A stretch of DNA of 64,000 bases from Eretmocerus hayati (lineage: Eukaryota > Arthropoda > Insecta > Hymenoptera > Aphelinidae). The notes under the pieces are model-generated. The model was not told the DNA's origin and searched no databases. It worked only from the letters and a program-made list of their open reading frames with translations. The translations under genes and the position numbers were made by a program. Positions 2,397 through 42,907 of the stretch are shown here, piece after piece; within the stretch, counting starts at the first letter, position 1, and every line of letters begins with the position of its first letter. The stretch is taken from contig CM056742.1 of the NCBI GenBank assembly GCA_029851415.1, forward strand, positions 135,210,715 to 135,274,714, written 5' to 3'.

Positions 2397-4506
2397 GAAT
2401 GCATTCATCCATTAATACATAGTAAATCTCGGATTGACCTGTCTTTCAGACGACAGCGATTCTCAAACAGAAGTAATGCCATCTCCGAAAAAACCCGCTC
2501 CGATGGTACCGATGTGGGCATGATTGCTAAAATATCCCTAGCCACATGGATAAAGTCGGAAATTTGGTTGAATTTGCTTTCCACCGTTGTGATATATCAA
2601 CATTAGAAGCTTCCCTTGGTGCACGAAGATATATTTCGATCTCAGAATCCCACGTAGGATGCTGAACTTGGGGACTTAGTAGATAATCAAGGTCTAGGTC
2701 ATCGTTATCAACATTCATCTCATTTTCGTCTTCACTGGTGTGAACATCTTCATGATGGATGCCATAATATTTGAGTTTGTACACGTCTTTAAATTTTGCA
2801 ATAGTATTTTCTTTCAGATCACGGTCCCATTGAGTCAGATCAAACGTTTTCACCTTATGCCTTGGATCTAAAATGAGAGACACGCAATATAACCAATTAC
2901 ATTTCGTATAATGCCTCACAAGCTTATCTCTGGCAGCTGTGTAAACTAAGAGGAGATGCTGATCAGTACTGGACTTAGCTCTTTTCCCACCAAATTTGAT
3001 ATATTGATTTCCAATTAATCGAGGAACATGTTGAATAATATCATAGCTGTGGGCCGAACAGCTTCATTTTCACTCGATATAAATTTTTGAAGCCCGGTTG
3101 AAATGTTTCAGAGTTTGCAGAATTATTGCAACCAAGTCCCACTGCGTTTCATTCATTTTAAACTTTGCTAAATCCTTCTGGCTCTCACACAGCATATTGA
3201 GTGGCACTCTTAAATCATAACATGTCTTCAACATTTCATATGTGCTGTTCCATCTGGTCCTGACATCGAGTATTGGTTTAATATAATGATTATTTGCCAT
3301 CTCGCAACAGCTCTCGAATTTCTTAGCTGTTGGCTCAGATTTTCGGATCTTCTTGACTAGGCGCCGCACGTTTGCGATTGTTCGGGGTGAAGCTGACTTG
3401 TTGCCATCATCAAGATTGACTTCGTCGCAATCATCATCATTTTCGTCAGAATCGCTCTCACTATCAACTGAGCCAAGTGACAACCTTCGATGCAATCTAT
3501 CATCGATTCTGGAACCAAATTCTTTCAATGCGTCCTGGACTGCTAAGTTTAGAATATGCGCAAAGCATCTGAAGTGCTGATCTTCAGCATCAAATTTTTG
3601 TCCATTAGTTGCCATAAGTTTCTCCAATTCTTGCATAAGAGTTGTATTTGCTGAAATGTTGACCGAAGTTATACCCTGAACTTTATGAGCAACGTTGTAG
3701 TCAATCAAAACATCGTATATCAAATTAGCAACATCTTTTCCTCTGTGTCTCCCTTTTGAGGGGATGAAATCGAGAACAATAGATCTCAGAACCCAATCTG
3801 AATCTATTGAATGGGTAGTGATGGTATAATACGAAGACCCATTCTTTCCGGTCAACGAATCCACTGTGAATGAGACTTTTGAATCATTTGCACCTAATAA
3901 TTACTCCAAATTCTCACGCATAAATTTTGCTTGAGCCAAAACGTTGTCGTGCATCACATTCCTCCGAGAAAATTTATCTGAGCAGCGCCGTGCGAAGTAA
4001 TTTTGAATCGTACGATCGTCGAAAAAACTCAGAGGTAGATTTTTATACGCAATCCAAGCAACAGTCTCTCGTTCAAAATTGACAGGTATCTTCTTATCCT
4101 CCTGAAACGGATAGTAGAATCGTAAACACCGAGTTGTGGCGTGAGCATGTAAACAAACACATATGTGTACTTGAATTATACCCGAAGCACCATACTCACA
4201 AAAGTTTGATGGAGCGTTACACGCGAGTAAGTAAAAATAGTTGAATTGTATTCAGCTTCAATTACTAAAGAAGTTATTGATACTCACATTCCAGCACTCG
4301 TTTACTGTCTTCTGCTTTGAATTTGTTGACTGGTCCAACTGAGGTCCAAATAAATCAGAATACAACTGCTTCTGATGTACTTTAATGTGCCTCTTGAGCT
4401 CCGTCGTATTACTGTTCTTCATTTTCACAGTTTTCTTTTTTGCGTCTCGACACATAGTACACACACCAACTTTACCATCTTGTCTATTCTGCACTTCTTT
4501 CTGCAC
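2397..4506 (-). pseudogene. hAT-family transposase relic (BED zinc finger type)
   Basis: A cut-and-paste transposase of the hAT superfamily, read in pieces on the minus strand. The N-terminal piece (4506-4258) holds a BED zinc finger: the cysteine pair in VCTMC, then TELKRH and VHQ supplying the histidines. The middle piece (about 4130-3070) has the usual RNase-H-fold signposts: FTVDSLTG with the first catalytic Asp, CFAHILNLAVQD, and RTRWNSTYEML. The C-terminal piece (2960-2400) has ILDPRHK, SQRWKANSTKFPTLS and, in a shifted frame, PSERVFSEMA, the conserved hAT dimerisation region. It is broken by an in-frame TAA at 3903-3901, a frameshift near 3068 and another near 2535. The position expected for the second catalytic Asp (TTDNAS in relatives) reads TSVNIS, so that residue is lost. 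Inactive. Confidence 0.93.
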
Positions 4507-6117
4507 TTCTTCGGCAAAATTTTTGGTGCCAGAATGAGAATCCGTGAAACCTAAATCTTGCGAATATAATTCTTGCCGAGAATCGAGAAGATCAGAAACA
4601 CAGCTTCATTTGGAGATTATCTTTAGTCTGCTCTTGTATCTTACTGTCTCACATCTATCCACTCTAAATGTCTTCATGAAAACGAGGAAGTAATTTGAAA
4701 ATTTCTTTCCATCTTCTGGGCGGAGGATGACTTCTCCGTACGGATTTTTTGATTTTGTTCCCCACACAGAAGATGGAGAAATACTATTCGACACTCGGAC
4801 GGTGTGATTTCTGCATTCTCGTGATAATTCCGACCCTCGCTTCTGGCTCGGGCCGGTAAATATCACTCGTTGTGCGGAAACCTACATTCCCACCTTCGTA
4901 TCGAAATATAATATTACTCAACTGAGACATAAAATTGGGAATGGAAATCTGAAACTGCCCTTGATTATTACTCTGTCACGAAGCAAAATGCATCCTTTGG
5001 GAGTTTTACATACAAGTTTCGACTCTTAGTTGACTCATAGAGTACAAGTGATTTCCTGTAAATCAGACATTTCCATTTCATTATGGTGCTGTCTTGCACA
5101 ATAACGTCAACTGAGCTTCGAAGCCTTAGAATTCTCTAAATTAATTTCGAAAACTCAACTTCATTGATAAACGGAGTTAGAGAAAGAATCAAGGTGAGCC
5201 TCAAATTCTGAATTAATAATGATGAAGGAGGGAAAGCTTCAGGAAAATGAAAGAACTCAACGAATCCTCCGTGGAAATTTTCAATCAACTAACGCTCTCG
5301 TTACCGTACCATAGCTTTGTGGCAAGCGCAGTGCCGATAATGAGTAGAAGGACTGTCTGTCAGTACGTTCCAAGCCAAATTGACACAACGATTCGTGGGC
5401 GTTGCTCACTTCAAGGGGTCAACGTCAAAGAGCCTACTCTTGAACCCCATTCTACCTTGACTGATCTGGTACAAGCTGTGGTGCCACTTGCAGAGCCTCA
5501 GTGAATTGCGTGTTCAAAGCAAGACGGTCATTCGGCTTGTGAAGTACTAGTAAATAAATGGGTAATGCCGAGGAGAGACCGTTCGATGGATCGTCTCCTT
5601 AAGAGAACGCGCTCTCGTATATCCCCTTCAATCTTACCGTTCATCGGAAACCCCGAATTCATGTTTTTAGGTGGTGTAATGAGGTCATTTGCTACTGCTA
5701 AGTGGTTCCGGAATCTTTTGGAGGAAGAGAATGAACGGAGCTCCAATAAGATGATGTGAAGTGCTGTTCGTGCATTTCTTCGTTTATATGGATACGGTAT
5801 AGGGTAAATTCATTCAACAAAGACAACACGATCTAATGAATCTTGTTGACGCTATAGATATAGGGATAGATAGTGGGTTGCAAGGACTCTGAGCGTATAC
5901 AATTTTGTTGAGCAGTCCATGAATTAAAGTAGGGTGGGGTGGGGGTGAAAAATGACTGGATGTCACTGCAATAAGGTAGTACACCTTAATTTGAGATCCT
6001 GATAACTTTTTCGGGAAAGATCGAAGATATGCGGAGGAATTATAATAATTAAGGAGCCAGGCAAAATTTGTCCGTCCACATACTGCGTATCGGGTCGCCT
6101 ATGCGGAAGGGGTGAAG
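4507..6117. other. Intergenic with weak small ORFs
   Basis: Three small frames exist: minus 4866-4606, plus 5247-5504 (85 codons from an ATG) and plus 5565-5759 (64 codons from an ATG, in a locally GC-richer patch). None shows a domain, signal peptide or supporting splice sites that I recognise. Part of the left portion may be the 5' untranslated region of the hAT element. Confidence 0.4.
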
Positions 6118-31430: not shown

Positions 31431-31941
31431 CACGTTACAGAAGATAAGTCTGTAGTCATTTTTATGATCATCTAAATGCCTCTTTGGGAATAATCAAAGA
31501 CCTCAAGCGCTTCGGGGACATTGTAATTTTAGTAAGAGTGATATAGGTGCGATATTTCTTGCGCAGTACTCCAGACATACTTTTCTGATGCGAACTCACT
31601 CTCTCACACAACAAAACTCAAATTTCACTCAGGAATCAAAAGATGTCCATTGGAGATTCGTGAATTATGTAACCAGATCACCGTATAGGATTCTGATACA
31701 ATTCCGAAAAGGAACTTGGATTTTTTGACCAGTGCAAGCCACAATTTATCTTTGGTTCACTAATAAATTTTGGAGACCGGAGGCGAGGATAATGATTGTC
31801 CGTCTCAGTTACAACAAAGGACTTTGTGTACATAAAAAATTAATGTGACGTGGGTATACCCCCGCATTTATTTTTCTTTTGATCGTCGCGAATATGTAAT
31901 TTTCCCACATGATTCTAACTCGTTAATGCAGCACGCATTCC
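31431..31941. other. Left flank of the dyad array
   Basis: No gene. The boundary of the element carrying the dyad array must lie somewhere here (perhaps near 31850), but I could not see a terminus. Confidence 0.35.
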
Positions 31942-32467
31942 GTACGCCGCCGGAACGTACACTCGACATATGAATTTGTTCAATCATTTTTGTACGCCTC
32001 CCAAGCGTACACGCTAACACCGTTCCAGGCTATAAATCAAGTAACGAACCCTATGTACGCCGCTCGGGCGTACATTCGGGTATATTTCAAATCTTTAAGG
32101 CAAATTCCGTACGCTCCTCCAGCGTACAAACTCCGCGTTATGCCGGCCATAAATCTCTCAGTATACTTTCGTACGCTCCCCGAGCGTACAACCCAATGAG
32201 TCATAAATCATTAGATCCATTCTGTACGCTTCTTGGGCGTACACCTTCCGCGTAGGTTTGATACCAGTGTACGTCTCCGCGACGTACACTTTGCATTACT
32301 AATCCGACATCGAAAGAATTGTACGCTTCCGCAGCGTACACTCGGCATGTGTTACAGAATATTGTACGTCTCCGAGACGTACAAGAAGGTGCTCGCATAT
32401 GTGGATGTACGCTCAAACGACGTACACATCTTATGGAGCATAAGGATTGTACGCTTCCGGAGCGTAC
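31942..32467. promoter_or_regulatory. Array of eleven GTACG-N9-CGTAC dyads
   Basis: Eleven 19-bp dyads start at 31942, 31992, 32055, 32109, 32171, 32224, 32269, 32321, 32364, 32407 and 32449. Every one begins GTACG and ends CGTAC. Nine have arms of 6-9 bp, and arm variants change on both sides together: GTACGCT/AGCGTAC, GTACGCC/GGCGTAC, GTACGTC/GACGTAC. Eight are also flanked by T and A, extending the dyad to 21 bp. Spacers are unrelated except that three contain ATAAATC. They shorten from 31-44 bp on the left to 23-24 bp next to the promoter. The last dyad ends 20 bp before the TATA box. I infer an upstream activating or silencing array for a homodimeric DNA-binding protein. Hairpin function in RNA is a less likely alternative, because the array lies upstream of the initiator. 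Confidence 0.9.
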
Positions 32468-32487
32468 AAACATAGGCAGACCACGGG

Positions 32488-32526
32488 TATATAAGACCGC
32501 GCTCGCGAAGCCCATCATCGTCAGTC
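32488..32526 (+). promoter_or_regulatory. TATA box and TCAGTC initiator
   Basis: TATATAAG at 32488-32495 is followed by TCAGTC at 32521-32526, a match to the arthropod initiator. The predicted start A is at 32523, about 33-35 bp after the TATA box, slightly longer than the usual 30. The dyad array lies immediately upstream and a GC-rich leader follows. Confidence 0.7.
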
Positions 32527-32637
32527 TCCTCCAGCTCGCCGTCGCGACGCTGTCTCCACGACACTCGGCCCAGCCGTGGCCTCGACGAACCCGACTCAAC
32601 GTGCCCCGCCGCGACCGTACCAAGTTGCCCCGGTGGC

Positions 32638-32760
32638 ATGAGTGACCAAGTGTGCATAGTGTTTGTGTTTCGCACCTCGAGTACCGAGTCGCAATTGTAT
32701 CTTGAAACTGTGAGAGTTATTCGAGTGCCTAACCCCGTCCCTAATCCAACGACGTCGTGA
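32638..32760 (+). CDS. Small ORF 1 downstream of the dyad-array promoter
   Basis: A 40-codon frame from an ATG in good context (GTGGCATGA), about 115 nt after the predicted transcription start, ending TGA at 32758-32760. It begins MSDQVCIVFVFR and ends with a proline-rich NPVPNPTTS tail. It precedes ORF 2 by 27 nt in the same transcript. It could be a short protein, a regulatory upstream ORF, or chance. I do not recognise it. Confidence 0.3.
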   Translation: MSDQVCIVFVFRTSSTESQLYLETVRVIRVPNPVPNPTTS

Positions 32761-32787
32761 GGACGCCCACGCACCTTGACCGGACGG

Positions 32788-32991
32788 ATGGACCGTCCCA
32801 GTCAACGACAGAGACGTTCCAAAACCTACGTACCCCGCTCCGAAGAGGAGCACCGACGAGACCTCTACGGACTTCAACAGGCCAAACGCTTGGCGCTGCT
32901 CGGAGCGTTGAAAGCCGAGGCCTCCACTCAACAAAACAAGACTGCTCAACCCTCAACTATCTCGTCTCCGCCCAGCGAGACGCGGGAGTGA
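32788..32991 (+). CDS. Small ORF 2 (basic, 67 aa), element-encoded
   Basis: Starts at an ATG in strong context (GGACGGATGG). The peptide is very basic at the N terminus (RPSQRQRRSKTYVPR), has a predicted amphipathic helical middle (EEEHRRDLYGLQQAKRLALL) and ends in a Ser/Pro/Thr-rich tail. The basic head could bind nucleic acid. The end of the frame and the following 60 bp recur at 57541-57655, where the frame is not preserved, so this is probably part of a repeated mobile element and not a host gene. A gag-like N-terminal fragment is one possibility. No domain is recognised with confidence. Confidence 0.35.
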   Translation: MDRPSQRQRRSKTYVPRSEEEHRRDLYGLQQAKRLALLGALKAEASTQQNKTAQPSTISSPPSETRE

Positions 32992-33008
32992 ATTTATTTT
33001 CATTCTCA

Positions 33009-33049
33009 TTGACGAGGTTTCCCGCAAGCGGAATTCCGAGCCCCGTCAA
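33009..33049. repeat. Terminal hairpin of the dyad-array unit
   Basis: TTGACGAGG pairs with CCCCGTCAA, with inner CCGC/GCGG pairing. The same hairpin is present in the fragment at 57541-57655, where sequence similarity stops just beyond it. It therefore probably marks the 3' end of the repeated element. Confidence 0.6.
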
Positions 33050-33165
33050 ATGCAAGATATTTGGTTTGTTGCCTCATTCTGGCTAACTAGACCACTCTGT
33101 ATTATGTGAATGAAGTAACTCTGGACCTCTAGTTGCTCAAATAGACGATCTTACACTGAATCTGC

Positions 33166-33624: not shown

Positions 33625-35509
33625 AATAGTTCATGGTATTAATTATTACACGATTTGGTGCTAGTATTCTACTCTAAAATATTCGGCAGGACTCTAAACA
33701 AAATGTCTCAGCATCTATGAATGAAATTTTGGCGTAAAATTCCACTTACATGGAGTTTGAGTTCTCTACTTGGTCTGTTAGTCAGCAAGCTATGTCTTAA
33801 ACACCTTCATTTCAATTTTTCCCTCCATTTTGAGAGGCCGTTTGCTTTTTAGACAGCAAAAGAGAACTATCTTTGCATGGTGACTTCTGACTTCAAAAAC
33901 TTGAATACAGCTACCACCACGTAATATTTTATTTTTTTCTCAAATAAGTGAGAAGTAACAAAAGAGATCGGATCAAGCTCGGGATCGGGTCATACTGGCG
34001 AACGATTTCGTATTGATGACGAAGAATTTGAATCGTGATCGTGCGACCATGACAATTTTTCCGTTCCGGTAAATCGGTATACTAGAGGAGCGGGACGAAC
34101 CATACGTGGTGACTATTTCGTCATCCGCATTTCATTCGAGCATACGACTCTATCTTTATAACCGTTGCAACAGCCGATAGCACATCCTGCATCTCTATAT
34201 ATTATTGAGTGAAAGTGATGAGAAATGTGCCCGTATGATTCCTATCTGTCAATTCGATCGGTCTTTTTGACGTGTTTCACTCAAGGGGATTATTTCGATA
34301 CAGATATCGTATATGAATTGAGTGGAGGTATCTATCGATTGGAAAAATCGCAGCTCTCGCGAGTTGTTACGCTCCGGAAGCATACGATTCCCGAGTGACA
34401 GCCTAGCCATTGGTTTGACCGTCCGGTCGAATTGATTTCTCTTGCGTCGGCAAGTTTGCCTTTGAGTATCGACAATCTCTCAATAATGGAGGATTTGATC
34501 AGGAAAGAGTTGCTGAATGAATTTCATTGAACGATGATGGAATTCAACTGTCAAAATTGTGAATTTTTCTGACAGATGCCATGCCCAATCAAGAATAGCT
34601 TAATTTGGTGTAATCGCAATGAATGTGCAAAATCTCAAGTATTATGAGGTCAAATGCAGGAATTCGAGGAGTAAAAATTTTGGAGTAGAAAACCAAAAAC
34701 CATGCAACTGGAATGGTATGTGAGGCATTCATGTGGAATTGTGCTCGGAGGCAGTTTGCTCGACGAGGGAAGCGATTGAAAGAGTCATCGTGATCATCAA
34801 CAGTTTTCAGATTCTAAAAATAAGTACGTAATCTCTGTATGGAATGTCTAGAAACTTGGTTCATCGGTATCGAGCCGTTTTTTGGAATGATACAGATTTT
34901 GTTTAGACCGTAAGTGCAGATCGGAAGGGGGTGGTTGTATTTGCAAATGTGAAACACTAAGCACTATCAGTAATTTGGTTCTGGACACTATAACATAAGT
35001 GAGAACTATGTTGATATTGCGTAAATTCAAGAGTCAGAAATATGTACAGAAAACGACTTGAGAATTACAATTTCACTTACAGAGCATCGAGTCTGAGCTG
35101 TAGACTCGTCCAATGGATAAGCTTCATTTAAGATTAATCGACTCAAGATGAGGGGCATCTCTCATCTCTCCACTTACAATCAATTAATCTTATCAAGAGT
35201 CGTCCAAGTGATACTTGGGGTTCTAATTGATCGCTCTTTATTGATGAAGGGATAACGAGCTCCACTTTACGTCGTTTCAAAATTCATCAATCCAATCTCA
35301 GGCTCCATCTAGCCATTTTACTCCATCAAAAACTGCATGCATAATTAAAGGTATGCTGTAGAGTTCAATTTTTTTTGCATAACTCGGATATCGTTACAAT
35401 TGATTAAATTCAGTAGTATGACGGAGAGTACGCACAAGCAACTTGAATTTCAGCTCTTGAATGTTTATCAGCCAAACTAATGGCCTGGGTATATTCATAG
35501 CTACCTAGC
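33625..35509. other. Intergenic, nothing recognised
   Basis: About 1.9 kb without a supportable gene. Sequence near 33960-34450 is somewhat GC-richer and non-repetitive, without an open frame worth naming. Confidence 0.4.
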
Positions 35510-39610: not shown

Positions 39611-40237
39611 GTAAGTACACCCAATAGTGCGCGTTGAGAATACTAATCATTCGAGTAGAAGCATTTTTGAAATCCGAAATAGTGATTAAGTCGTAATCTT
39701 TGAAGATATGAATGATACACAATTCAATCAGTCCGTGAAGTCTATGAACGGAAATTAGATCAGTACAATTACAGATATTCATATCATTCTAGAAGTACCA
39801 AGCTAGGAAAAATAGAAATTCAACTCATGCGTGATTTTGGGGAGATGAAAAGGAATAAGATGAATTTATCACGAAAATTTCTAAAGATCGAAAATTAAAT
39901 TTTTGCGCAATTTCGAGAGGATGGAAATAAAAAAATTGATTCTCCATCAAGAATTTGCCGAAAAAATTATATTTTTTGCGCGACTTTGGGAAGATCAAGA
40001 TGAAGAAATGGATTTTTCTTCAAAAATTTACAGAAAAAAAAAATTATATATCTTGCGCGATTTTAGGAAGATGAAAATATTAAAAATGATTTTTCCATCG
40101 AATTTTTCCTGAAAATTTTTTTGTAACTCTCAACTTGCGGCATATGTAGTCACGCTACCGGAGGAGAGAGAGTAGAGTCTATCGGTTCGCGCGTGCCCTT
40201 GCCTGCCGCAGTCGTGCATACACTCCGCGCGCGAACA

Positions 40238-40328
40238 CACGTGTGCCAGGAGAAGCAAGTTACACCTGCGAAGAGGAGCGGAGGGGGAAACGCGCCTCTG
40301 ACGCACGTTTGCTCTCGCGCCGTCAGTT
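40238..40328 (+). promoter_or_regulatory. Promoter copy 2: CACGTG box and TCAGTT initiator
   Basis: E-box at 40238-40243 and initiator TCAGTT at 40323-40328, 85 bp apart. No TATA box is seen. The region is GC- and CpG-rich compared with its surroundings. Confidence 0.65.
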
Positions 40329-40477
40329 CTTCGCGTGCTCTCTTAGCGAGCACATCGAAGCCCAGGCACTCGAACGGGATACAACAGCGGAGCAGCGTCA
40401 GTGGAGTGGGGAGCTGCGGGTGGTGTACAAGACTCAAGCAGCACCAATCTCTACGCATCCCTTCAATCACACACATC

Positions 40478-40519
40478 ATGGTGAAATCAGAAGATGGCAG
40501 TCAAGCAGTTCTAGCAAAA
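40478..40519 (+). CDS. First coding exon copy 2 (MVKSEDGSQAVLAK)
   Basis: Fourteen codons from an ATG preceded by CACACATC, about 155 nt after the initiator. The exon ends exactly at a codon boundary, followed by the strong donor GTAAGTAC. The identical peptide is encoded by copy 3 with a synonymous CTA/TTA difference, and a close variant by copy 4, which supports coding. It would supply the N terminus of a larger protein whose later exons I cannot place. Minus-strand frames over this region are shadows. Confidence 0.6.
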
Positions 40520-41219
40520 GTAAGTACACCCAATAGTGCGCGTTGAGAATACTAATCATTCGAGTAGAAGCATTTTTGAAATCCGAAATAGTGATTAAGT
40601 CGTAATCTTTGAAGATCTGAATGATACACTATTCAATCAGTCCGTGAAGTCCATGAACGGAAATTAGATCAGTACAATTACAGATTTTTATATCATCCTA
40701 GAAGTACCAAGCTAGGAAAAATAAAAATTCGACTCATGCGTGATTTTGGGGAGATGAGAAGGAATAAGATGAATTTATCACGAAAATTTCTAGAGATCGA
40801 AAATTAAATTTTTGCGCAATTTCAAGTGGATGAGAATAAAAACAATGGATCTTCTATCGAAGATTGAAAAAAAAACTCTCTTGCGCGCGCGATTTCGAGA
40901 GGATGGAAATGAAAAAATAGATTCTCCATCAAGAATTTGCCGAAAAAAATTATATTTTTTGCGCGACTTTGGGAAGATGAAGATAAAAAAATGGATTTTT
41001 CTTCAAAAATTTACAGAAAAAAAAATTATATTTCTTGCGCGATTTTAGGAGGATGAAAATATAAAAAATGATTTTTCCATCGAATTTTTCCTGAAAGTTT
41101 TTTTGTAACTCTCAACTTGCGGCATATGTAGTCACGCTAGCGAAGGAGAGAGAGGAGAGTCTATCGGTTCGCGCGTGCCCTTGCCTGCCGCAGTCGTGCA
41201 TACATTCCGCGCGCGAACA

Positions 41220-41310
41220 CACGTGTGCCAGGAGAAGCAAGTTACACATGCAAAGAGGAGCGGAGGGAGAAAGGCGCCTCTGATGCACGTTTGCTCTCGC
41301 GCCGTCAGTT
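41220..41310 (+). promoter_or_regulatory. Promoter copy 3: CACGTG box and TCAGTT initiator
   Basis: E-box at 41220-41225 and initiator at 41305-41310, again 85 bp apart. Confidence 0.65.
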
Positions 41311-41459
41311 CCTCGCGTGCTCTCCTAGCGAGCACATCGAAGCCCAGGCACTCGAACGGGATACAACAGCGGAGCAGCGTCAGTGGAGTGGGGAGCTGCG
41401 GGTGGTGTACAAGACTCAAGCAGCACCAATCTCTACGCATCCCTTCAATCACACACATC

Positions 41460-41501
41460 ATGGTGAAATCAGAAGATGGCAGTCAAGCAGTTTTAGCAAA
41501 A
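41460..41501 (+). CDS. First coding exon copy 3 (MVKSEDGSQAVLAK)
   Basis: Same 14-residue peptide as copy 2, with TTA in place of CTA for leucine. Donor GTAAGT at 41502. Phase 0. Alternative use of this exon and copy 2 would give identical proteins, so the array would diversify regulation and not protein sequence. Confidence 0.6.
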
Positions 41502-42202
41502 GTAAGTACACCCAATAGTGCGCGTTGAGAATACTAATCATTCGAGTAGAAGCATTTTTGAAATCCGAAATAGTGATTAAGTCGTAATCTTTGAAGATCT
41601 GAATGATACAAAATTCAATCAGTCCGTGAAGTCCATGAACGGAAATTAGATCAGTACAATTACAGATTTTTATTTCATCCTAGAAGTACCAAGCTAGGAA
41701 AAATAAAAATTCAACTCATGCGTGATTTTGGGGAGATGAGAAGGAATAAGATGAATTTATCACGAAAATTTCTAGAGATCGAAAATTAAATTTCTGCGCA
41801 ATTCCAAGTGGATGAGAATAAAAAAAATGGATTTTCTATCGAAGATCAAAAAAAAAAACTTTCTTGCGCGCGCGATTTCGAGAGGATGGAAATAAAAAAA
41901 TTGATTCTCCATCAAGAATTTGCCGAAAAAAATTATATTTTTTGCGCGACTTTGGGAAGATGAAGATAGAAAAATGGATTTTTCTTCAAAAATTTACAGA
42001 AAAAAAAATTATATTTCTTGCGCGATTTTAGGAGGATGAAAATATAAAAAATGATTTTTCCATCGAATTTTCCCTGAAAGTTTTTTTGTAACTCTCAACT
42101 TGCGGCATATGTAGTCACGCTAGCGAAGGAGAGAGAGGAGAGTCTATCGGTTCGCGCGTGCCCTTGCCTCCCGCAGTCGTGCATACATTCCGCGCGCGAA
42201 CA

Positions 42203-42293
42203 CACGTGTGCCAGGAGAAGCAAGTTACACATGCAAAGAAGAGCGGAGGGGGAAAGGCGCCTCTGACGCACGTTTGCTCTCGCGCCGTCAGTT
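42203..42293 (+). promoter_or_regulatory. Promoter copy 4: CACGTG box and TCAGTT initiator
   Basis: E-box at 42203-42208 and initiator at 42288-42293, 85 bp apart. Confidence 0.65.
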
Positions 42294-42444
42294 CCTCGCG
42301 TGCTCTCCTAGCGAGCACATCGAAGCCCAGGCACTCGAACGGAATACAACAGCAAAGCAGCGGCAGTGGAGTGGTGAGCTGAGCGTGCTGTATAAGGCTC
42401 ACGTGGCATCAATCTACAGGCACTGCCCCATCAGGCGAATCACA

Positions 42445-42483
42445 ATGAAATCGGAAGATGGCAGCCAAGCAATTATAGCAAGG
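42445..42483 (+). CDS. First coding exon copy 4 (MKSEDGSQAIIAR)
   Basis: Thirteen codons from an ATG, one valine codon shorter than copies 2 and 3. The differences VL to II and K to R are conservative, and other codons differ synonymously (TCG for TCA, AGC for AGT). It ends in AGG followed by a GTGAGT donor, still phase 0. The leader upstream has diverged more than the peptide, which is what purifying selection on the peptide would give. It is the most downstream copy, so probably nearest to the next exon. Confidence 0.6.
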
Positions 42484-42907
42484 GTGAGTACTCCTGACAC
42501 TACAATTCCATAATTTGATCATCCTAGTTAGAGAAGCTTTGAAATTTACCATCAAATTCGAGTCATAGTTCACAATATTAGCATAGGATTAATGATTTCG
42601 AATCATACGCAGCCTAGAAAAGATATACAGATGATTCATTCTGGTTCAATAATCCCGCGCAATCCAGAATGAACAAAATCTCAGTAACAAATTTCCTCTT
42701 GGATTGTTGCGCGATTTGAGAGGTTTAAATTAAGAAAAATTCTTTCCCTCATTCATTTCCGTGGTATTTTTTTCAAATCCCCGTTTCGCACTACATATAA
42801 CGGTGCACATTTCAGTAAATAACAACAGATGAATCTGCTCATTTTTTAAATGAGCCAAACTTGATTCCTAGAAAAGTTTGAAATGGAATCTAATCTTATT
42901 CACAGAC

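Follow-up and report, generated by a model that had tools for sequence, protein, structure and literature searches.

Which genetic unit carries the array of palindromes near the middle of a 64,000-nucleotide stretch of the Eretmocerus hayati genome (the window), and what may the array do there? An exact search located eleven GTACG-N9-CGTAC dyads of 19 bp each between positions 31942 and 32467, the only exact ones in the window (Table 1). When up to two mismatches were allowed, the window contained 22 sites compared with 7.8 ± 2.7 in 100 shuffles, of which none (0/100) reached 22. The spacings of successive dyads (50, 63, 54, 62, 53, 45, 52, 43, 43 and 42 bp) become shorter towards the predicted TATA box TATATAAG, from 50-63 bp in the first five to 43, 43 and 42 bp in the last three. 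The number and exact length of the dyads, the tightening of their spacing and the gap of 20 bp between dyad 11 and TATATAAG all agree with the preliminary description of this DNA. Its statement that the spacers are unrelated did not hold, since weak similarity is present (mean pairwise local score 10.2, compared with 9.3 for shuffled spacers; reached by 2 of 200 shuffles). An A lies directly 3' of the dyad in 11/11 cases and a T directly 5' in 8/11, so that the symmetric unit is often 21 bp long. The CpG observed/expected ratio is higher in the array (1.66) and in R-U5 (1.28) than in the flanks (0.85 and 0.98).

Table 1. Features of the window, with one row for related elements elsewhere in the genome (positions are those of the window unless a record is named).
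Feature	Position	Strand	Basis or remark
5' target-site duplication AATG	31842..31845		same 4 bp on the other side of the LTR
Solo LTR, 1203 bp, TGACG...CGTCA, Ty3/gypsy	31846..33048	+	identity to L021 LTRs, ends, length
LTR part before the TATA box (most of U3), with the dyad array	31846..32487	+	U3/R border inferred from TATA position
Dyad 1	31942..31960		exact dyad search
Dyad 2	31992..32010		exact dyad search
Dyad 3	32055..32073		exact dyad search
Dyad 4	32109..32127		exact dyad search
Dyad 5	32171..32189		exact dyad search
Dyad 6	32224..32242		exact dyad search
Dyad 7	32269..32287		exact dyad search
Dyad 8	32321..32339		exact dyad search
Dyad 9	32364..32382		9/9 pairs complementary
Dyad 10	32407..32425		exact dyad search
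Dyad 11	32449..32467		its end 20 bp 5' of TATATAAG
TATATAAG, predicted TATA box of the LTR promoter	32488..32495	+	same word located in other U3s
TCAGTC, Inr-like word	32521..32526	+	also in 5 other LTR copies aligned
67-aa ORF in the LTR, 3' of TATA	32788..32991	+	open in 6/6 LTR copies compared
3' target-site duplication AATG	33049..33052		same 4 bp on the other side of the LTR
ORF-bearing LTR elements	L072 1-2124; L073 3-1994; also L087-L093	- (L072, L073)	open frames of 717-873 aa

The unit is a solo LTR of a Ty3/gypsy retrotransposon, with the array in U3 upstream of the LTR promoter. It matches the LTR pair of L021 (contig C1) at 98.9% and 99.3% identity; L021 is an internally deleted element in which two identical 1203-bp LTRs, with the target-site duplication (TSD) ACAT, surround 2644 bp that contain a gag and remnants of pol. 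A sister U3 belongs to an element of about 7.2 kb (L026/L027) with two 1100-bp LTRs that show 1 difference and with the TSD GTTT. Pfam profiles above cut-off were Retrotrans_gag in L021 and RVP, RVT_1, RT_RNaseH, Integrase_H2C2 and rve in L026/L027, which also has a gag-like frame, almost the same as in L021, and where the integrase follows reverse transcriptase and RNase H, the Ty3/gypsy order; a SH3_Tf2-1 match remained below cut-off in the scans of both elements. Pol was not found as a single open frame in the stretches of L026/L027 that were read, and the L021 gag reached E 0.001 with 0 of 7996 scored candidates from a large protein set. TGGCGCC, a possible tRNA-Lys primer binding site, starts 3 nt past the LTR in L021 and L026, and the 30 bases of L027 inspected for a polypurine tract before the 3' LTR contained no clear purine run. 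Scans of the window with Rfam and ARAGORN gave no match and no tRNA, respectively. A free-standing gene or a non-LTR unit is ruled out by the LTR ends and the TSDs; the small mobile transcription unit of the preliminary description is thus indeed mobile, yet it is the U3-R-U5 of a solo LTR rather than free-standing.

The word TCAGTC downstream of the TATA box presumably resembles an Inr motif. The 67-aa ORF varies at 4 amino acid positions among six LTR copies and gave no match in a Pfam scan; a 40-aa ORF upstream of it is open in 6/6 LTR copies as well. Two further observations concern other parts of the window. Positions 2527-4605 hold, on the minus strand, a hAT-type transposase fragment (Pfam hAT-like_RNase-H, E 1.8e-5, below the curated cut-off), and 39891-42513 consists of three alike units about 982 bp apart with alike ORFs, each preceded by AT-rich repeats of 73-74 bp. 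A dyad-like site with two mismatches at 34367-34385 lies beyond the LTR, and chance alone predicts about 8 sites of this kind across the window.

The elements L021 and L026/L027 are 97.6-99.1% identical where L021 retains internal sequence. Moreover, the R-U5 of L023, L024 and L026 is 91.1-93.5% identical to that of the window, yet the U3 arrays are unlike, so that two U3s stand on nearly one body. By sequence comparison, U3s appear to have been exchanged between L021-type and L026/L027-type elements.

The preliminary description had proposed a genome-wide search for dyad clusters and had named decayed arms in other copies as evidence against a function. Genome-wide, the 19-bp dyad was found 3541 times (reversed-pattern control, 970), the 18-bp form 637 times (control, 516) and the 20-bp form 238 times (control, 812); the control is a rough and noisy yardstick, as it exceeds the actual count for the 20-bp form, and among these three lengths only 19 bp stands out. 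A dyad 5-35 bp before TATATAAG occurred at 394 places compared with 1 in the control, and among the approximately 100 of these matches listed, all on C1, there were several distinct dyad-to-TATA sequences. A query with R-U5 yielded 942 candidates; the 40 that were scored were all 99-100% identical, and 30 were fetched, the window copy among them. All 30 keep arrays, with 10-15 exact dyads per copy (11 in 20 copies, 10 in four, 13 in four, 14 in one and 15 in one). The extra dyads of the U3s with 13-15 dyads (L047, L043, L033-L036) sit upstream, mostly 61-63 bp apart, and the ones in L047 are similar to the F3/F4/F10 dyads.

For a wider sample, ten U3s chosen to differ were fetched and nine stretches upstream of ORF-bearing elements were also read, two of which (L078 and L079) joined the dyad set. 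The resulting 16 U3s contain 118 exact dyads and fall into seven groups: A (F1, F9), B (L047 extension, F3, F4, F10, F10b), C (F2, F8, F8b), D (F5, F6, F7), E (L025), G (L078) and H (L079), the L047 record including the F1 array as well. The arrays thus recur in U3 types with poor or no mutual alignment, and since the same arrangement is found in other, largely different LTR promoters, the array looks like a real control switch. The excess of 19-bp dyads amounts to roughly 2600-3300, depending on the background, and about 394 dyad-TATA places with about 7 exact dyads per U3 would, by this rough count, supply roughly all of it, so that no large host regulon with the dyad is visible. Two clusters of an 18-bp GTACG-N8-CGTAC palindrome in the same genome (G000 C1:26349122-26351392 and C1:26702561-26705217) are tandem-repeat-like, and a 20-bp sequence, GTACGCGAACCTTCGCGTAC, is dispersed in it. 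The IMG/VR viral collection contained 16 stretches with two dyads 20-50 bp apart.

The geometry of the arrays is similar among U3s. From the last dyad to the TATA box, the gap is 20 bp in 7 of the 16 U3s, 19 bp in 2, 22 bp in 2 and 8-9 bp in 4, a figure partly built in because the search for the 394 places itself required a dyad 5-35 bp from TATA; the U3s of groups G and H, selected by ORF similarity, both have a gap of 22 bp. The remaining U3, L025, has a gap of 93 bp by exact dyads and a one-mismatch dyad at 21 bp. The two classes of 19-22 bp (11/16) and 8-9 bp (4/16) differ by about one helical turn. Dyad spacings, too, follow the helix: 65 spacings of 30-110 bp from nine U3s, counted between dyads of at most one mismatch, concentrate near multiples of 10.5 bp (R 0.62, mean phase -0.1 bp), although the pooled P is not a probability because many spacing values are related by descent. 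With each distinct spacing counted once, R was 0.47 (P about 8e-4). The optimum is broad (10.3-11 bp), and phasing was significant alone in 5 of the nine U3s, not in F5, F7, F8 and F11.

The outer arms of the dyads are conserved above the spacers in three of four subfamily pairs; together with the arrays kept in 30/30 LTR copies, this decides the refutation test of the preliminary description in favour of its functional reading. With dyads required to be exact in the reference U3 alone, identical sites in outer arms and spacers numbered 105/110 and 270/347 from F1 to F9 (P 6e-6), 80/80 and 329/371 from F4 to F10 (P 4e-4), and 88/90 and 246/293 from F10 to F10b (P 2e-4). The excess was weaker from F10 to F4 (97/100 and 297/333, P 0.016) and was not significant for F8/F8b (40/40 and 427/444, P 0.38). 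Positions 6, 7, 13 and 14 were hardly above the spacers in the same comparisons (39/44 vs 270/347, 29/32 vs 329/371 and 31/36 vs 246/293), and the dyad centre was likewise hardly better conserved than the spacers between related U3s. Within the family of the window LTR, 2 of 154 arm sites (positions 1-7 and 13-19) and 21 of 433 spacer sites are variable (P 0.054), a weak difference, as counted in 23 of the 30 copies including that of the window (12 haplotypes), seven copies with a different U3 length or type being omitted; this supersedes an earlier count on 17 copies with a 10-dyad reference, in which 0 of 140 arm sites varied.

Compensatory change in the arms, which the preliminary description had read from the window, depends on the set of dyads considered. 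The eleven dyads of the window have 24 of 44 inner pairs complementary compared with 19.8 expected (P 0.11; 0.31 without dyad 9). Among 73 distinct dyads, complementarity was found at 6-14 in 55 (43.9 expected, P 0.0002) and at 7-13 in 50 (35.8 expected, P 0.0003), and covariation was absent at 8-12, at 9-11 and in four off-register controls. After near-identical dyads (fewer than 4 changes apart) had been removed, 20 of the 73 were left and significance was gone (P 0.16 for 6-14, 0.12 for 7-13). The claim thus fails in the window alone, stands for the distinct dyads and falls again after strict de-duplication. Within groups A-D, a joint test of pairs 6 and 7 that ignores descent gave 102/138 complementary compared with 78.4 ± 5.0 (0/20000 shuffles). 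The flanking pair 0-20 was complementary in 64 of 87 distinct 23-mers compared with 41.5 expected (0/20000 shuffles), its switch mainly separating the groups from one another (T-A in A and G; C-G in B, C and D; H mixed), and pair -1/21 was weak (39 vs 29.6, P 0.012). Two aligned dyads have two-sided changes, C-G to T-A at 6-14 (F10 to F10b) and G-C to A-T at 5-15 (F1 to F9); most other changes in aligned dyads are one-sided.

How are these properties best explained? Judging from sequence and geometry, the array is probably a phased set of predicted dimer-binding sites that drives LTR transcription from U3. Each dyad of 19-21 bp would bind one sequence-specific dimer, which would recognise a GTACG in either half and be influenced by the adjoining bases; at sites near whole helical turns apart, bound dimers would stack along one face of the DNA and lead into the TATA/Inr start, and together the sites would most likely activate LTR transcription strongly, perhaps cooperatively. 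TATA association, phasing and fixed site length are what point to a DNA-binding dimer at the LTR promoter, and activation is the likeliest sign in view of the retention and multiplication of the sites by the elements. We infer dimer binding, an activating and not a repressing effect, and a single factor behind it. The homodimeric regulator put forward in the preliminary description would fit the 19-bp length, the phasing and the TATA gap; an additive homodimer alone, on the other hand, predicts no covariation at positions 6 and 7, so that an extra ingredient (paralogous dimers, hairpins or arm-to-arm copying) would be needed. Because these two positions are hardly better conserved than the spacers, we hold the dimer-site reading slightly less firmly.

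If the dyads instead recruited a host repressor or insulator protein for LTR silencing or as a boundary, a factor directed at transposable elements would fit the finding that LTRs supply roughly all excess dyads and that no large host regulon is apparent, and the accessible part of one report offers a precedent in the 12 Su(Hw) sites within 460 bp of Drosophila gypsy (PMC9576066). We consider such recruitment unlikely: an element would gain nothing by keeping and multiplying silencer sites, copies with 13-15 dyads exist, and TATA association would be more usual for activation. The symmetry could also arise without any function, from old tandem duplication and arm-to-arm copying. Quasipalindrome correction during reverse transcription is a mechanism of arm-to-arm copying; the weak similarity retained by the spacers, the variable number of upstream 61-63 bp repeats between copies and the loss of covariation upon de-duplication all suit this origin. 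Left unexplained by it are the same GTACG arms with a similar TATA gap in U3s that do not align, and the outer arms that outlast the spacers, and we regard it as quite improbable.

Equally improbable in our judgement is a role of the dyads as hairpins in RNA, with a stem of 7 bp and a loop of 5 nt; these would form in the U3 copy near the RNA's 3' end and serve packaging, 3'-end formation or stability. Pairing is supported for the 7-bp arms and not for the central 5 bases, single dyads fold, and pyrimidines prevail in the centre on the sense strand of the LTR, position 10 being T or C in 52 of 59 distinct dyads; the centre of L025 (2 exact dyads), however, looks reversed. Sense-strand cells of the G-U type exceed those of the A-C type at pair 8-12 (13 to 4), the one hint of an effect on the RNA strand, but not at pairs 6 and 7 (15 and 16, respectively), and helical phasing and the TATA gap are properties at the DNA level.

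As a special case of the dimer-site reading, the regulator might be encoded by LTR elements themselves, the candidate being an ORF of about 720-870 aa. F5 and F6, with LTR parts that are 99.4-100% identical, a PBS-like TTGGCGCCC and 6 and 8 exact dyads, respectively, have a single ORF of about 750-800 aa that takes up the internal region; neither gag nor pol was seen in elements of this type. Between F5 and F6 the ORF has dN 0.39 and dS 1.26 over 612 codons (NG86; dS undefined or saturated in parts). The genome holds at least 81 matches to it (of 133 candidates, 63 were scored); many are free of stops, and open frames reach 998 aa. Two carriers at 43-44% identity contain exact dyads, 8 in L078 and 10 in L079. 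Nevertheless, 7 of the nine upstream stretches (carriers at 33-38% identity) are without an exact dyad, although some U3s may lie outside them, and none of the 81 matches falls in the gag-pol copies L021 and L026/L027.

Eight aligned members of the ORF family have in common RWLAGAPGGWWP and an arginine-rich RRxRxERAxRxAxW block, which in our view recalls the lambda N peptide. The ORF of F5/F6 has no Pfam match at cut-offs in the 708 aa of L072 and the 664 aa of L073 that were scanned, and thus lacks a known DNA-binding domain of that collection, and its structural model is mostly disordered (mean pLDDT 41.5), with helices at 406-419 and 484-550 and disorder in the rest; both points speak against a binder. 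Against PDB profiles the ORF alignment scored best with an H5R late gene transcription factor chain (E 0.0015), a match that covers a charged helical stretch and was rejected as compositional. We accordingly doubt that the LTR elements encode their own dyad binder. Likewise doubtful is a regulon of their own, in which LTR elements devoid of gag and pol would encode a new disordered, arginine-rich dyad binder and gag-pol Ty3/gypsy elements would share the operator; if true, one element-encoded factor would control an entire group of U3 promoters that are otherwise unlike.

The Tax-responsive 21-bp repeats of HTLV-1 and the baculovirus hr palindromes bound by IE1 are repeated dyads at which a dimer enhances transcription from a TATA promoter; these are viral, and their motifs and spacing differ from those of the window array. 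The Su(Hw) cluster of gypsy is located in the 5' untranslated region and not in U3, and its motif is non-palindromic, while Tnt1 is a Ty1/copia type element with few BII boxes. In gypsy, about a dozen binding sites for one host factor act as an insulator (PMC9576066). The likeness to the window LTR lies in the cluster of sites within an LTR retrotransposon. For the plant element Tnt1, the available text places the BII boxes in the LTR promoter, as are the dyads here, and says that they bind defence-induced DNA-binding factors (PMC3316501).

The closest likeness is to the repeated motifs (RMs) of plant Sireviruses, Ty1/copia elements whose LTRs, as far as the accessible text of the source goes, carry clusters of short dyad-symmetric palindromes (3-14 per 3' LTR) upstream of TATA and at CpG islands, with function unproven (PMC2829016). 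The same part of that source reports similar palindromes in elements with little other homology, CGG-CCG cores in 12 of 13 Sireviruses with units of 10-20 bp, and further RM copies outside the LTR in Sireviruses with an ENV gene (PMC2829016). Palindrome arrays upstream of an LTR TATA box are thus already described, in that text, for plants, and the window LTR shares with them the cluster, its place upstream of TATA and its recurrence in poorly aligning elements. The differences lie in the superfamily, Ty3/gypsy by pol order and not Ty1/copia, in the motif, with GTACG/CGTAC arms at 19 bp, and in the near-helical spacing. Our searches of an open-access literature collection found no arthropod precedent for the dyad array.

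LTR promoters with poor or no alignment thus keep the geometry of predicted dimer sites, namely the 19-bp site, spacing near multiples of 10.5 bp and usually 20 bp to TATA, while the intervening sequence is replaced. A common trans-acting factor for different retrotransposons thereby becomes a testable question.
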